Positions 28,271 to 35,595 of a stretch of DNA of 52,549 nucleotides are shown here, piece after piece. The position numbers were made by a program, and so were the translations under genes. The stretch is from Candidatus Gottesmanbacteria bacterium (GTDB taxonomy: Bacteria > Patescibacteriota > Microgenomatia > UBA10105): assembly GCA_023245415.1 (NCBI GenBank), contig JAHFKJ010000009.1, positions 1-52,549 of the forward strand. Reading direction: 5' to 3'. Position 1 is the first letter of the stretch; each line of letters opens with the position of its first letter. Under the pieces are notes generated by a model that was not told where the DNA came from, made no database searches, and saw nothing but the letters and a program-made list of their open reading frames with translations.

Positions 28271-29200
28271 TTATATAATTTTACCTATTGAAAGGAACCA
28301 TATCAATTCTGTAACTGCAAATAAGAAAAGCAGATGCGCTAAATTTCTTCCGCTTATACGTATTATTTTCCGTCTCCAAATATAAATCCCGTCAACAACT
28401 AACGCAAGAATTAATCCTGTGGTTATTCCCAATAATGCCTTTTTAGTGGTATCAAATATATCGATGATTGGTTTACGAATAACTGATGAAGCAGATTCTG
28501 TCAGGACAACATTATTATTTAAAGGCGAACCGATTTGTGGTAATACTGTATTATTAATTTTAATCTCCGGATTAGATTTGGTTTTAACAACCGCGCTCAC
28601 AGTTGAGGATTCGAGATTTACGATTGAAACCGAATCTTGCAACCGTTTCCCGAACATTTGTACAACTAATGTAGTTTCTTCACCATTTAACTTTCCGTTA
28701 ACGACAGCGAAACCAATGTCTTCATATTGTTCGCGTAAAATATTTTCTCGATGTGAAGGAGAGTTCATCCATGCCTCAGTTACTCCATCAGAGTTAGAAA
28801 AGTTTTTAGCTAAGTTTTCACCTGCGAGCGCATAAACGTACCCTGATTCATTAATAAACACCCAGGGCGTAGTACCATCCGGAGCAGTATGGGCCCAAAA
28901 ATTATGTAAAAACATATAATTGGCTTTTTGAGTTGCAGCTTGAGAGAGTTGCGAGTTAAGTTTCAACATATTTAAACCTGACTCTTCTCTTTTTTTATTG
29001 GTCAACTCTAATAGTTTTTCTATTCGTATATCAGTTGCGAAACCCAATATATCTGGATTAAATCTATGCAGTATTCTCATACTCAAAACAAATATGAAGA
29101 AAACAACGATGTATAATGCAATAAAATCTGTATGAAGCACCTTAGCTCTAAAATTATTGGTATGGTGAGGCAATAATAAATGTCTTAAAAAATAACTCAT
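28271..29200 (-). CDS. CAP-domain (SCP/PR1) membrane protein
   Basis: 309 residues. One membrane helix (about 27-45) precedes a CAP domain at roughly 63-190. The domain has LTNKKREESGL, HNFWAHTAPDGTTPW, AGENLAKNF and WMNSPSHRENIL, carrying the two His and two Glu of the CAP cavity. A linker follows, then two helices near the C terminus (about 255-275 and 287-306). Bacterial CAP proteins are secreted or surface proteins of varied function. It lies next to the end of the glycan locus and may be a substrate or partner of it, which is speculation. Confidence 0.85.
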   Translation of the reverse strand: MSYFLRHLLLPHHTNNFRAKVLHTDFIALYIVVFFIFVLSMRILHRFNPDILGFATDIRIEKLLELTNKKREESGLNMLKLNSQLSQAATQKANYMFLHNFWAHTAPDGTTPWVFINESGYVYALAGENLAKNFSNSDGVTEAWMNSPSHRENILREQYEDIGFAVVNGKLNGEETTLVVQMFGKRLQDSVSIVNLESSTVSAVVKTKSNPEIKINNTVLPQIGSPLNNNVVLTESASSVIRKPIIDIFDTTKKALLGITTGLILALVVDGIYIWRRKIIRISGRNLAHLLFLFAVTELIWFLSIGKII

Positions 29201-31209: not shown

Positions 31210-31655
31210 AGCTTTTGGTTAATTTTAATTAAACGCAAGTTTTCATCCTTAATCGTAAACTCTAGTGAGAGTTTAGGTGCAATAGCTATTTCACGTAAAA
31301 TTTCGGGCCATTCTATAAAAAGTATATTGCCAGAATCTGCTAAAATTTCAGAAAATCCAAAAACAGCAAGTTCAACACTTTTTTTAATTCGATATAAATC
31401 AATGTGATATAGATAGTCGAAAACAGGAATTGATAAACTATATCTTTTTACAATTAAAAAAGTGGGGGAGAGAATTCGCTGGGGGAGACCAAATTCTTTG
31501 GCAACTCCTTGCACAAAAGAGGTTTTTCCACTCCCCAATTCTCCGATCAAAGTTATAACTGTAGCTTGCTTTCCCCTACCCCCTTTTATTAAATAATCTG
31601 CAATTTTTCGGCCCAAACTTTGAGTCTGACTGGCATCATAGGTAATAATTTCCAT
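31206..31655 (-). CDS. tsaE: TsaE-like ATPase (t6A synthesis)
   Basis: 149 residues from the ATG at 31655; a TTG four codons upstream is possible but unsupported. The P-loop GELGSGKT is at 38-45, then SPTFLIVKRY, the HIDLYRI strand and FIEWPE. All are standard TsaE motifs. TsaE binds TsaB-TsaD and its ATPase activity recycles the complex. The gene start lies 67 bp inside the 3' end of the VanZ-like gene, which has a longer than usual tail, and its stop overlaps tsaC as ATGA. Confidence 0.88.
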   Translation of the reverse strand: MEIITYDASQTQSLGRKIADYLIKGGRGKQATVITLIGELGSGKTSFVQGVAKEFGLPQRILSPTFLIVKRYSLSIPVFDYLYHIDLYRIKKSVELAVFGFSEILADSGNILFIEWPEILREIAIAPKLSLEFTIKDENLRLIKINQKL

Positions 31656-31999
31656 ATATATAAACAAGTTATGCTAATTGCGAAGCTGTCAATCAATACA
31701 TCGCGCATTCTCCCCTCTCTCGTAGGTACAAACACTTGGTGGATCTCATCAAATAAAGCATACATAATAGCCAATAATACGCTATGAAAATGATCCTTCC
31801 ATTCAGGATCATTTCGGGTATTACGAAAGGATCGATAAAACATAAGGTAGAGAAAAGCGTATTCAATTATGTGGAGTGATTTAAAAAATAAAAATTGGAT
31901 TGTAGCGCTATCCGAAACTTGCACATGAGGACGTGAAGAAAAGTAAAAAATAAGTGCCATCATGCAAAAAGACGGCCACCAGTATTTGATAATTCTCAT
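31589..31999 (-). CDS. VanZ-like membrane protein
   Basis: 136 residues with three to four hydrophobic segments. FYFSSRPH near residues 19-26 and the YALFDEIHQVFVPTREG(R) motif near 81-97, followed by DVLIDSFA, are the VanZ-family signature. The function of chromosomal VanZ-like proteins is not settled; VanZ itself raises teicoplanin resistance. The last 20 residues are basic and lie in the stretch overlapping tsaE. A perfect TATAAT stands 6 nt before the ATG. Confidence 0.82.
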   Translation of the reverse strand: MRIIKYWWPSFCMMALIFYFSSRPHVQVSDSATIQFLFFKSLHIIEYAFLYLMFYRSFRNTRNDPEWKDHFHSVLLAIMYALFDEIHQVFVPTREGRMRDVLIDSFAISITCLYIWKLLPMMPVRLKVWAEKLQII

Positions 32000-32005
32000 T
32001 TACAA

Positions 32006-32011
32006 ATTATA
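32006..32011 (-). promoter_or_regulatory. possible -10 element 6 nt upstream of the VanZ-like gene
   Basis: Perfect TATAAT on the minus strand, 6 nt from the ATG at 31999. Its TAA is the stop codon of the preceding gene, so gene packing alone could explain it; no good -35 box is visible. Confidence 0.3.
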
Positions 32012-32813
32012 CAGGAGTTCTTGGTTTTTTTACACGGAACGCCAGGAAACCCGCTCCACCCGATAATAATATACCGGTTATAACCATTATAATTCCAAAA
32101 GGAAAACTTCCCTGATTTTCCGCACTCGTTGAAGCTGTTAAAGACTCTGCAGAATCTGTCGAAACAACCTCATTTGTCGTCTCTCCTAAGATATCGGAAG
32201 AAGGCTCGGGACTAGACAGCACTTTACTTGAAGGCGATGGAGAGGGTTTTTTAGGAGACGCTACTGGTGAAACTGAAGGTGTTGGCGTAGATGTTGAAAC
32301 AGGTGAAGCGTTCGGAGTTGATGTTGGTTTTGGCGAAGTTGTAGGCACTGGAGTAGGTATAGGACCTGTGTTTGCGTTATCTTTTGTTTGAGAAGTAAGT
32401 GTATAGAAATCTCCAGTATTGTCTGGATATCTTCCTATTGAAACGTTTTCTCCTGGGTCTTTGGAATAAGTATATTTATCTACGATAGTGCCAGCGTTAT
32501 CGAATAAGACCACTGTATCTCCATCATTATTCAAAACTGAGCTTAAATCAATATGAGGAAAGGTATTACTATCTGTAACAAGATTGGTTAAAATTTTTTT
32601 GGCAGAACTACCTGAATCTTCTGAAAAGTTTTCGTCATCATCAATATAATAAGATTTTAAATATTCAGCGCTTGAACTTGCATTGTAGAATTCCACCCAC
32701 TCAGGAGTTGAATGCGCGCTAAATTCATTAATCTTCACCTGAGCCTGAGCAGATCGAACAAATAAAGCAAATAAAAATAAAAAACAAGCGCAAGAAATAA
32801 ATTGTTTGTACAT
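32007..32813 (-). CDS. secreted lamin-tail-domain protein with Ser/Thr/Pro stalk and C-terminal anchor
   Basis: 268 residues. A signal peptide (1-24, cleavage after AQA) is followed by a lamin-tail domain (about 25-150) with KINEFSAH, PEWVEFYN, LNNDGDTVVLFD and GRYPD. Residues about 150-225 are a low-complexity Pro/Ser/Thr linker. A single membrane helix (about 238-262) and a basic tail (RVKKPRTPV) end the protein. The layout is that of a wall-spanning surface protein; the stalk is a natural O-glycosylation target for the GT-C enzymes of the window, which is inference. Lamin-tail domains in bacteria are of unknown function. Confidence 0.85.
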   Translation of the reverse strand: MYKQFISCACFLFLFALFVRSAQAQVKINEFSAHSTPEWVEFYNASSSAEYLKSYYIDDDENFSEDSGSSAKKILTNLVTDSNTFPHIDLSSVLNNDGDTVVLFDNAGTIVDKYTYSKDPGENVSIGRYPDNTGDFYTLTSQTKDNANTGPIPTPVPTTSPKPTSTPNASPVSTSTPTPSVSPVASPKKPSPSPSSKVLSSPEPSSDILGETTNEVVSTDSAESLTASTSAENQGSFPFGIIMVITGILLSGGAGFLAFRVKKPRTPV

Positions 32814-32883: not shown

Positions 32884-32892
32884 TTATTGTAC
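32872..32892. repeat. 21-bp palindrome at the 3' end of the M23 gene
   Basis: Arms GTACAATAAT and ATTATTGTAC pair perfectly around a single A. The palindrome covers the stop codon of the M23 gene. It has no T-tract on the downstream (minus) side and low GC, so a terminator is doubtful; a regulator binding site or a chance AT-rich palindrome are alternatives. Confidence 0.4.
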
Positions 32893-34032
32893 GTGCAAGT
32901 ATAAACTTACCAATCCATCTCCGTGATCGATATATTTGATTTTAATAATACTCGTTCCGCCACAATTTTGCGAAGCTGAATAAAGCACCCCATCTTTTGG
33001 CGCACGAATAACCGTTGACGAGTTAGAATACATATCTATCCCAGTATGAATTCCTCCACTATATTGATAACGATATGACCAAGGTGTAACGCCATAGTAC
33101 TGTGTAATTGTGACGTCTCCAGTTAATGGCCAATCCCAATTACCCGACCCAACAGTCGCAATAACACCATTGTTTTGATTATCAGTAATTGATTTAGATT
33201 TAATGAAATCCGCTGGATTTATCCACTGATTATTTCTGCGAACTTCAAAATGAAGATGTGCTCCAGTAGAACACGCTGGGGCTCCCGTATTGCCTACAAG
33301 TGCGATAGGGTCACCGGCTTTTACTGGACCGACTCTATCACCATTGATAAGTGCGGCATCAATAGCTTGCTTTTCTGCAAGAGCTTGTTGCAACAAACTT
33401 TGGTAAGTAGCTTCATTATTCTTGGTCTCATTTAATAAAGTTTCTTTGGATCTACGCTGTTGATCTAACTTGGTAATTTGAATCTCCAGTTGTTTTTTTA
33501 GTTCTTCTAGCTGATGCTTCTTGAATTCCCGTAAATCTTTTTTTTCACTAAAATCTACTTTTGCAAGCTGGACCTCAACGAGCACCTGACGGTCATGTTC
33601 CTGGGCTTTTTGCAGGTATTTAAGCCGATATATTGCATCAGTAAGACCATGTGCTGATAATAACAACATAATTTTTGGGATCCGCTGTTGTTTATACGTA
33701 GCTATCACACGCTGAATAAGTAGCTGGGAAAGTTTCGAAAGAGTGGTGTCTAAATTAAAAATTTTTGTACCCAAATCTGCTATTTCTACAGTTAAATTAA
33801 CGATTTTGACCTTAGTTTCCGAAATTTCCAGTGTCGTTAACTTAATCTTATCGGTCATCGATGAGATCTCTGCTGAAAGCGTCCGTTCCTGAGTTTGTGC
33901 AGTTTCAAGCTTTTTTTTAAGTTCTTCTATTTGTTTTTCTAAATCACCCGTAGAATCTTGAGCATGAATACTCGAAGTGAGGCTAGTAAAAACAAGACAA
34001 AAAATCAATACCACGTTTACAATTTTTTTCAT
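32884..34032 (-). CDS. coiled-coil M23 (LytM) peptidase with circularly permuted catalytic domain, FtsEX partner candidate
   Basis: 382 residues. A signal peptide or anchor (1-24) precedes a long coiled coil (about 28-225), as in EnvC and PcsB. The M23 parts follow in swapped order. The segment that normally ends the domain, with GNTGAPACSTG and HLHFE (259-263) then WINPADF, comes first. The segment that normally starts it, WPLTGDVTITQYYG, HTGID (329-333), APKDG and YLH (378-380), comes last and ends the protein. All zinc and catalytic residues (H329, D333, H261, H259, H380) are present. It lies 12 bp downstream of ftsX, so FtsEX probably controls it at division. Confidence 0.85.
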   Translation of the reverse strand: MKKIVNVVLIFCLVFTSLTSSIHAQDSTGDLEKQIEELKKKLETAQTQERTLSAEISSMTDKIKLTTLEISETKVKIVNLTVEIADLGTKIFNLDTTLSKLSQLLIQRVIATYKQQRIPKIMLLLSAHGLTDAIYRLKYLQKAQEHDRQVLVEVQLAKVDFSEKKDLREFKKHQLEELKKQLEIQITKLDQQRRSKETLLNETKNNEATYQSLLQQALAEKQAIDAALINGDRVGPVKAGDPIALVGNTGAPACSTGAHLHFEVRRNNQWINPADFIKSKSITDNQNNGVIATVGSGNWDWPLTGDVTITQYYGVTPWSYRYQYSGGIHTGIDMYSNSSTVIRAPKDGVLYSASQNCGGTSIIKIKYIDHGDGLVSLYLHVQ

Positions 34033-34044
34033 GCATAGTAGAGT

Positions 34045-34911
34045 TTACCGCAAGTACCGATTTAAAGCCATGATGCTAGCTAACATCCCAAGTAATATAC
34101 CGCAAACTTCTATCACAGCTAAATACAGCACGTAAAACAGTGGAGAAATCGGAAAAATAGCCAATTCTGCAAACTTTGAACTTAAGTAAGGAGTAAGATA
34201 GAGTAATAATCCAACATTAATAAGCCACCCTATCAAAGCCCCACAGGCACCATAAAAAGCTCCCTCAACAATAAATGGGTTTCGAATATATGATGTGGTA
34301 GCTCCAACTAGCTGTAAAATTTCTATTTCATTTTTTCGCAAAGCTATTTTCATACTTATTACTGTCAATACGGTAAATAAAGAAGTTAGACCTAATAAAC
34401 TTACAAAGGTAATCCCAACAGTCCGAATTATAACGATCCAAGAACCTAAAGTATTTACAACATCTTCAGGAAATATTATTCCTTCAATATCGGATTCTAT
34501 ATTTAATGTTTTTGCGATTTCAGATAAATCTTCAATTTTTTTAGTCGCAACTGCTATCGAAGCAGGTAGTATATCAGTAGGGACCATCTCCAAAACTAAT
34601 GGATTTTTTAAGTATTGTTTTTTATTTTCTTCGAATGCTGCTTCTTTAGAGACATACTTAACTGAGGCGACCTGATCCATATTTTGGAGTTTCTCCTGAA
34701 GTTTCTTAATATCAGCTTCTTTTTTGGAATCCTTAAAAAACACCACAACTTCCGGTTTCCGCTCATAATATTCTATAAGAATTGATGATCCTATGCTTAC
34801 TAAAAAAAATAAACCGCCAACTAAAAAGGTCAGCAACATGATAGAAATCGCTGCGAATGCCTGGTACGGAGTCCTTCGTATATAATTGTTGGTATATTTG
34901 AGAATGTTCAT
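34045..34911 (-). CDS. ftsX: cell division protein FtsX
   Basis: 288 residues with four helices: one near 20-45 and three in the C-terminal half. The extracytoplasmic domain (about 50-165) lies between the first and second helix, the FtsX layout. EILQLVGATTSYIRNPFIVEGAFYG near residues 195-222 is the conserved coupling region. FtsX joins the ATPase FtsE and transmits its activity across the membrane to a coiled-coil peptidoglycan hydrolase or activator. ftsE lies immediately upstream (6 bp) and such a protein immediately downstream. Confidence 0.92.
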   Translation of the reverse strand: MNILKYTNNYIRRTPYQAFAAISIMLLTFLVGGLFFLVSIGSSILIEYYERKPEVVVFFKDSKKEADIKKLQEKLQNMDQVASVKYVSKEAAFEENKKQYLKNPLVLEMVPTDILPASIAVATKKIEDLSEIAKTLNIESDIEGIIFPEDVVNTLGSWIVIIRTVGITFVSLLGLTSLFTVLTVISMKIALRKNEIEILQLVGATTSYIRNPFIVEGAFYGACGALIGWLINVGLLLYLTPYLSSKFAELAIFPISPLFYVLYLAVIEVCGILLGMLASIMALNRYLR

Positions 34912-34917
34912 ATAAAT

Positions 34918-35595
34918 TTACTTATAGTTTCCTTGTTTTTGGTCTTTAACTATTTTTCCTTTTTCAAGAGCGATGACTCTTTTTTTCATACTATTTACAA
35001 CATCAACATTGTGCGTCGCCATAATGATCGTAGTTCCCAATTTATTTATTTCTTTAAGAATTTTCAGAATTTCACATGAATTTGTGGGATCAAGATTACC
35101 TGTTGGTTCATCCGCCAATACAAGTTTCGGTCCAGCAACTATAGCTCGAGCTATAGCTGTACGTTGTAATTCACCTTGAGAAAGCTGAACTGGGAATAAA
35201 TTGATTTTTTCAGCCAGTCCCACCAAATGTAATACTTCATGGACTTTCTTATAAATTTCATCACGCGGTCTACCGGTAATTTCTAAAGCTATGGCAACAT
35301 TCTCCTCAACGGTTCTATCAAATAAAATCTTAAAATCCTGGAATATCATACCTATATTCCGTCTTACGTGTGGGATTTGTGTTTTTTTTAGTTTAGTTAA
35401 ATTCAAATTGTCTATAAGTATATTTCCGCTTGAGGGTAAAACTTCTCGTAAAAGTAACTTAAGAATAGTAGTTTTACCTGCACCAGAATTACCCACTAAA
35501 AAAACGAAGTCGCCCTTATCAATCGTAAAGTGCACATTATCTAATGCGTATACCTTGCCATAGAGCTTAGAAACATGCTCAAAAGAAACTAACAT
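34918..35595 (-). CDS. ftsE: cell division ATP-binding protein FtsE
   Basis: 225 residues, single ABC domain. Walker A GNSGAGKT is at 35-42, the Q-loop FQDF at 85-88, the signature LSQGE at 138-142, Walker B LVLADE at 158-163, and the H-loop MATHN near 192-196. The opening FEHVSKLYG and the short length are typical of FtsE. It drives FtsX and hence septal peptidoglycan hydrolysis. It is 4 bp downstream of a small membrane protein gene. Confidence 0.94.
   Translation of the reverse strand: MLVSFEHVSKLYGKVYALDNVHFTIDKGDFVFLVGNSGAGKTTILKLLLREVLPSSGNILIDNLNLTKLKKTQIPHVRRNIGMIFQDFKILFDRTVEENVAIALEITGRPRDEIYKKVHEVLHLVGLAEKINLFPVQLSQGELQRTAIARAIVAGPKLVLADEPTGNLDPTNSCEILKILKEINKLGTTIIMATHNVDVVNSMKKRVIALEKGKIVKDQKQGNYK

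Follow-up and report, generated by a model that had tools for sequence, protein, structure and literature searches.

A permuted M23 peptidase domain in FtsEX-linked coiled-coil proteins of Patescibacteria

The window, the whole stretch of 52,549 nt that we have analyzed, contains on its minus strand a gene coding for a coiled-coil protein of 382 amino acids. This protein ends in an M23 domain whose two halves appear in swapped order. The genes ftsE and ftsX are found directly upstream on the same strand. Their position agrees with an earlier note on this DNA, to which only the strand has to be added. Genes for a lamin-tail-domain protein and a VanZ-family membrane protein come next. These features are listed below; conservation values refer to 90 distinct permuted domains, three of which have a gap at H380.

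31589..31999, minus strand: VanZ-family membrane protein, second gene after the peptidase (VanZ, 2.6e-13)
32007..32813, minus strand: lamin-tail-domain protein, next gene (LTD, 2.9e-12)
32884..34032, minus strand: FtsEX-linked coiled-coil peptidase with a permuted M23 domain (382 aa; the coordinates include the stop codon)
32887..33144, minus strand: canonical first M23 half, here last, residues 297–382 approximately (profile positions 2–56)
32893..32901, minus strand: YLH, residues 378–380, with the catalytic His just before the last two residues (H380 in 87/87)
33034..33048, minus strand: HTGID, residues 329–333, with the zinc ligands His and Asp (H329 in 86/90, D333 in 89/90)
33145..33189, minus strand: linker between the old C-terminus and the old N-terminus, residues 282–296 approximately (from the profile boundaries)
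33190..33339, minus strand: canonical second M23 half, here first, residues 232–281 approximately (profile positions 62–96)
33250..33258, minus strand: HLH, residues 259–261, with a catalytic His and a zinc His (H259 in 90/90, H261 in 89/90)
33343..33414, minus strand: arm helix, residues 207–230, past a conserved hinge (AlphaFold2 model and hinge comparison)
33424..33957, minus strand: coiled coil, residues 26–203, similar to EnvC, RipC and PcsB (AlphaFold2 model and Foldseek)
33958..34032, minus strand: N-terminal signal-peptide-like stretch, residues 1–25 (by eye; low pLDDT)
34045..34911, minus strand: ftsX (FtsX_ECD 1.8e-16 and FtsX 1.7e-10, both above cut-off)
34918..35595, minus strand: ftsE (TIGR02673, 1.6e-83, above cut-off)
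G000:C42:6510-6806 and G000:C57:9589-9876, same genome: canonical M23 domains (L001 and L002, profile search)

The last two domains belong to other proteins and cover profile positions 2–96. The product of ftsX also matches the NCBIfam FtsX models (3.5e-50), yet it lies below their cut-offs. The closest named relatives over the permuted domain, among the matches listed, are UBA10118 Patescibacteria bacterium (69% identity) and a Microgenomates group bacterium (57%). The bacterium of the window is a Patescibacterium, probably of the class Microgenomates. Proteins resembling the VanZ and LTD proteins of the window are found in 22 and 19, respectively, of 35 loci of this class, several of which are cut by contig ends. 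The window also codes for a CAP-domain protein (PF00188) with several hydrophobic stretches (28271-29200, minus strand).

Among peptidoglycan hydrolases, the M23 fold is very common. The Pfam model Peptidase_M23 (PF01551) matches the protein in two stretches, with 59.3 bits against a cut-off of 28.7 (4.3e-16 overall). In a DNA profile search, residues 236–273 fit positions 62–96 of the profile, while the stretch from residue 328 to the protein end fits positions 2–56. The two halves are thus complementary and swapped, since the stretch for positions 62–96 precedes that for positions 2–56. The permuted order proposed in the earlier note is therefore correct, and so are the positions it gave for the motifs: HLHFE at 259–263, HTGID at 329–333 and YLH at 378–380. 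The protein ends with the residues VQ after H380, at residue 382. In canonical M23 domains the H(x)nD motif comes before HxH. This order is reversed in our protein, which is therefore a permuted variant and not an ordinary member of the family. The complete set of M23 zinc and catalytic residues is present, as had also been claimed: H329, D333, H259, H261 and H380. By homology to LytM, water would be activated by two histidines, H259 and H380 (PMC4594094). H329, D333 and H261 would be the zinc ligands; the motifs are those described in PMC9662197, and the pairing with residues is our own.

The AlphaFold2 model obtained for the whole chain from 39 sequences has a mean pLDDT of 84.6 and a pTM of 0.69, and that for the domain alone, from 90 sequences, a pLDDT of 94.5 and a pTM of 0.90. 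The first contains helices at residues 52–116 and 130–203, a break, a helix at 207–230 and then a strand at 232–237, so that the last helix of the coiled coil is predicted to run directly into the catalytic domain. In the second model the domain is one compact unit: Both halves are predicted to fold together, with their relative placement confident. This prediction bears indirectly on a refutation named in the earlier note, a fold in which the halves do not form one zinc site.

The best Foldseek match of the whole chain is the V. cholerae FtsEX-EnvC structure (8tzl, 5.5e-5), followed by EnvC bound to FtsX, a chain from M. tuberculosis FtsEX-RipC and PcsB, which appears twice. These five matches point to a coiled-coil hairpin of the EnvC/PcsB/RipC type, with low TM-scores (just 0.24–0.42) and only the two EnvC entries at E <= 0.001. 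VIA-align finds unrelated long helices, PI3K iSH2 among them, which align mainly with residues 50–205. The PcsB model NF046104 gives a weak match to residues 2–227 (2.8e-4, far below its cut-off), and the EnvC equivalog PRK11637 reaches 37.6 bits against a curated cut-off of 270. When the domain alone was compared with the PDB, Foldseek gave nothing at E <= 0.001 and no M23 entry among the best 50 of 200 matches. VIA-align gave nothing with Z >= 5, and the best BFVD match had an E of 0.023, none reaching 0.001. These searches thus gave no independent fold match for the domain. Foldseek and VIA-align probably retain chain order, and an absence of M23 would be expected of such aligners. A permuted M23 domain is easily overlooked, because tools which follow chain order split it or miss it.

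The swapped order is not restricted to the window. Within the class, 58 of 59 genomes, including that of the window, match the peptidase. An intact or nearly intact homologue is found in 56; the other cases are a fragment at a contig end (L062), a different gene with a canonical M23 domain (L063) and the one genome without a match. Among these 56, swapped M23 domains are found in 39 (again counting the genome of the window), and the other 17 have a different C-terminal domain. H259, H261, H329 and D333 are identical in all 39 permuted proteins. H380 is kept in the 38 which reach that far, and the chain stops 2–4 residues later.

We have extended the search to the phylum, with 379 genomes. One uninterrupted match over both halves in swapped order was found in at least 87 of them, in 39 families: 21 genomes (12 families) within the class and 66 genomes (27 families) outside it. 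This figure is a lower bound, taken from the matches listed; it counts stop-free rows running from position 20 or earlier to position 150 or later, out of 163. The 30 best loci of this search are all permuted, and so are 20 further places analyzed with their surroundings, which were picked to spread over families. Counting distinct domains over all loci, we have 90 permuted, all of them from Patescibacteria, 33 canonical from Patescibacteria and 81 canonical from elsewhere. Similar layouts in other CPR proteins, mentioned tentatively in the earlier note, do occur. A Tyr is present eight residues or fewer before H329 in 78 of the 90 permuted domains, and the linker between the halves is variable, 1–26 residues in 87/90 as judged from the HMM boundaries. 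Only the canonical and the fully swapped order appear among the half orders of all these domains, with no duplication intermediates of the ABA or BAB type.

A few permuted domains deviate at the active site. Pro is aligned at the zinc ligand H329 in four of the 90 (GWPGGID), which by eye include L199, L200 and L227, and Asp replaces H261 in one, L194. These may possibly be degenerate, EnvC-like members.

Outside Patescibacteria the swapped order was not seen among the loci and matches listed. A genome scan gave at least 591 pattern matches and 382 relatives, from which the best 80 loci were retained. Two of these are Patescibacterial, and both are permuted. In the other 78 loci the half-order test reads 81 ORFs as canonical, one as a single half and none as permuted; a general M23 layout with swapped halves is accordingly unsupported. 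Among the matches listed, none spans both swapped halves in the genomes to which 44 of the 78 loci belong (1e-5), in 201 Chloroflexota genomes (1e-16) or in 199 Bacillota genomes (1e-18). A search of 200 Pseudomonadota genomes, made without a positive control, gave no match at all at 1e-18. About 640 non-Patescibacterial genomes were covered overall, three of the 44 recurring in the phylum samples; phylum labels were taken from the database records of the genomes. These thresholds could miss divergent permuted copies, since with alignment A2 some of the Patescibacterial matches that span both halves were no better than about 5e-13.

The swapped order may have a single origin, judging from sequence comparison. 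Several independent origins, for example one in the class of the window and another in other Patescibacteria, appear to us possible but doubtful. Filters for length and identity left 25 of the 85 permuted domains, 24 of the 27 canonical ones from Patescibacteria and 8 of the 62 from elsewhere, and we have built trees with these. A free tree of the re-ordered domains needs at least five state changes, as several origins would predict, with weak support throughout. A tree constrained to group the permuted rows without L210 is worse by 5.91 log units (p-AU 0.413). However, when the constraint covers all 25 permuted rows, the tree improves on the free search by 2.08 log units (p-AU 0.55), and the starred branches of the free tree force only one change. 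The break point also speaks against several origins: The frame ends at most four residues from the first-half model in 85 of the 90 permuted domains.

The linkage to ftsX is a frequent feature of these genes. FtsX was detected in 366 of the 379 genomes of the phylum. We have considered a gene as linked when an FtsX match on the same strand ends at most 400 nt ahead of the open frame or at most 700 nt into it. By this measure ftsX is directly upstream in 82 of the 88 permuted loci with enough room to tell. Six of the 88 have no adjacent ftsX, among them L201, where it lies 654 nt upstream, and L196, where it lies 2153 nt upstream. The permuted M23 domain is not wholly confined to an FtsEX partner, since the protein of L196 (210 residues; L196:4263-4892, plus strand) has the permuted domain without a coiled coil and away from ftsX.

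Conversely, other domains occupy the same place. In 13 of 32 canonical Patescibacterial M23 genes the next gene upstream is ftsX, a biased figure, as most of the 13 come from a search started from ftsX. We have also analyzed 120 further ftsX loci, picked mostly from families in which the permuted order had not been seen, so that their counts do not represent prevalence. The next frame codes for a permuted M23 domain in 5, a canonical M23 domain in 12, a CHAP-like domain in 13, a C39-like domain in 11 and half an M23 domain in 3; it has no recognised hydrolase in 60, and there is no frame in 16. One of the three half domains, L333, is by eye a permuted gene cut by a contig end. CHAP and C39 were assigned by motif, and Pfam confirms CHAP in L264 and L326 and C39_2 in L342. 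The 60 loci without a recognised hydrolase are an overcount, because the motif missed at least one domain that is CHAP by Pfam (L228). By eye, these up to 60 next frames include CTP synthase- and RecO-like proteins; in such loci the FtsEX partner may be elsewhere or missing.

In the class, the 17 proteins without a swapped M23 domain have by eye a C39-like C-terminal domain (L043–L046, L048–L055, L057–L061), and the two that we scanned, L045 and L057, match Peptidase_C39_2 of Pfam. We have discarded the possibility that the permuted order is the sole kind found beside ftsX, as 12 of the 120 sampled loci have a canonical M23 domain there. Linkage to FtsEX does not require the permutation, since in other Patescibacteria this position beside ftsX is taken by canonical M23, CHAP or C39-like domains. 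The FtsEX-linked coiled coil looks like a plug-in place for unrelated hydrolases.

The helix at residues 207–230 is preceded by a hinge which is conserved and reads T-K-N-N-E-A-T-Y-Q in the window. The distance from this hinge to the start of the domain is 29–42 residues in 76 of 90 permuted proteins and 47–78 residues in 17 of 33 canonical Patescibacterial proteins. The two ranges do not overlap; they cover the proteins with a hinge motif, leaving out 14 permuted and 16 canonical ones, and the absolute distances depend on where the half-models begin. In canonical M23 domains the gap between half-models is short (6–15 residues in 112 of 114). The new chain ends should therefore lie near each other and near the active site, and one of them is indeed two residues from the catalytic H380.

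We think it probable that the protein is an FtsEX-dependent peptidoglycan hydrolase, in which a coiled coil similar to those of EnvC, PcsB and RipC is joined to a permuted M23 domain, and that this enzyme would be active and regulated by FtsEX. The zinc endopeptidase would cut the peptides of peptidoglycan. The coiled-coil arm would hold the enzyme off until FtsEX moves the coiled coil and releases it, as described for EnvC, PcsB and RipC. To judge from the topology, the arm would enter the domain beside the active site, with no long tether left. The coupling should be stiffer than in the canonical cousins, because the chain opens right after the catalytic YxH. FtsEX would then gate an active M23 endopeptidase by means of a short, stiff arm.

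A more tentative possibility is that the permutation itself is the gate. The end of the arm helix and the C-terminus would both lie beside the cleft, and a movement of FtsEX could open or distort the active site directly. Neither a displaceable restraining arm nor a flexible tether would be needed, and such a design would have spread to much of the Patescibacteria.

The EnvC LytM domain has its halves in canonical order, unlike the swapped M23 domain of the window. LytM and lysostaphin are also canonical, and they are not known to have an FtsEX coiled coil. They belong to M23B and share with our protein the H(x)nD and HxH motifs, the further catalytic His and a Tyr before the first His (PMC9662197, PMC4594094). 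The EnvC proteins of E. coli and V. cholerae resemble it in their coiled-coil hairpin, arm helix, C-terminal LytM/M23 domain and FtsX partner, the latter indicated here by gene linkage. In EnvC, the groove is closed by a helix placed between the coiled coil and the LytM domain, and it becomes free when the coil is moved by FtsEX (PMC7668044, PMC11627006). PcsB and RipC are likewise described as autoinhibited. The LytM domain of EnvC is catalytically degenerate and activates amidases (PMC11627006), whereas the active site is intact in the window. PcsB of S. pneumoniae and RipC of M. tuberculosis also combine a coiled coil with a C-terminal enzyme under the control of FtsEX, which in our case is suggested by gene linkage. 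Their enzymes are a CHAP and an NlpC/P60 domain, respectively, attached via linkers (PMC11627006), while in the window a permuted M23 domain comes straight after the arm. Natural permutation of a hydrolase fold is also found in the YaeF- and LRAT-like NlpC/P60 families (PMC6403190), which differ in fold and catalytic chemistry from the M23 domain described here.

Three other readings have to be weighed against an FtsEX-regulated hydrolase. It is unlikely that the permuted domain is folded but acts mainly as an activator or scaffold, like the LytM domain of EnvC, while another enzyme does the cutting. EnvC is the nearest fold match and its LytM domain is degenerate (PMC11627006), and the four domains with Pro at H329 and the one with Asp at H261 would fit such a role. 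However, the window protein and nearly all its relatives retain the five residues, while EnvC has no zinc ligands, and the CHAP and C39-like (papain-like) domains at the same place after ftsX suggest that this is a place for an enzyme. Even less probable is a domain-swapped dimer, with the halves pairing between chains. At high concentration PcsB reportedly forms a dimer that inhibits itself (PMC11627006), and some relatives have a very short linker, but a single chain gives one confident domain in AlphaFold2 (pTM 0.90, with a monomer as the only input). A frameshift or an assembly join, mentioned in the earlier note, or a chance likeness of the halves may be rejected as practically negligible: The frame is intact, the same order is conserved in at least 39 families, and the same half-order test reads 81 ORFs as canonical and none as permuted in 78 loci of other groups.

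The operon has been described before. A 2025 paper reports VanZ, an ABC system, an LTD protein and a papain-like or M23 coiled-coil peptidase, and all these parts are present in the window. FtsX, FtsE and EnvC are absent from its main text; in the portion available to us, permutation is used only of Lipocone domains and no permuted M23 domain appears. The available text of a 2022 review on M23 contains no word starting with "permut" (PMC9662197), and that of a paper on a CPR predator does not mention FtsX, FtsE or M23 (PMC8080830). A search of full texts, a scope which excludes bioRxiv and most subscription papers, gave among the matches listed no report of a natural circular permutant of M23, LytM or lysostaphin. 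There was also no report of a permuted M23 domain among the best full-text matches for FtsEX or hydrolases together with CPR or Patescibacteria. The permuted FtsEX-linked M23 domain is real and widespread, and apparently it has not been described as a permutation.

The swapped order beside FtsEX may bear on how the division switch controls a cell-wall cutter. Related coiled coils beside one transporter carry canonical M23, permuted M23, CHAP and C39-like enzymes, and their exchange on one scaffold would make the coupling of force from FtsEX to the hydrolase directly testable. In one genome (L193, G115:C2) three genes are found in a row, ftsX and those for a permuted and a canonical M23 peptidase, both with coiled coils. 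The positions of the matches indicate that the same row is probably present in G141:C37 and G194:C1. This arrangement is possibly the trace of a duplication.
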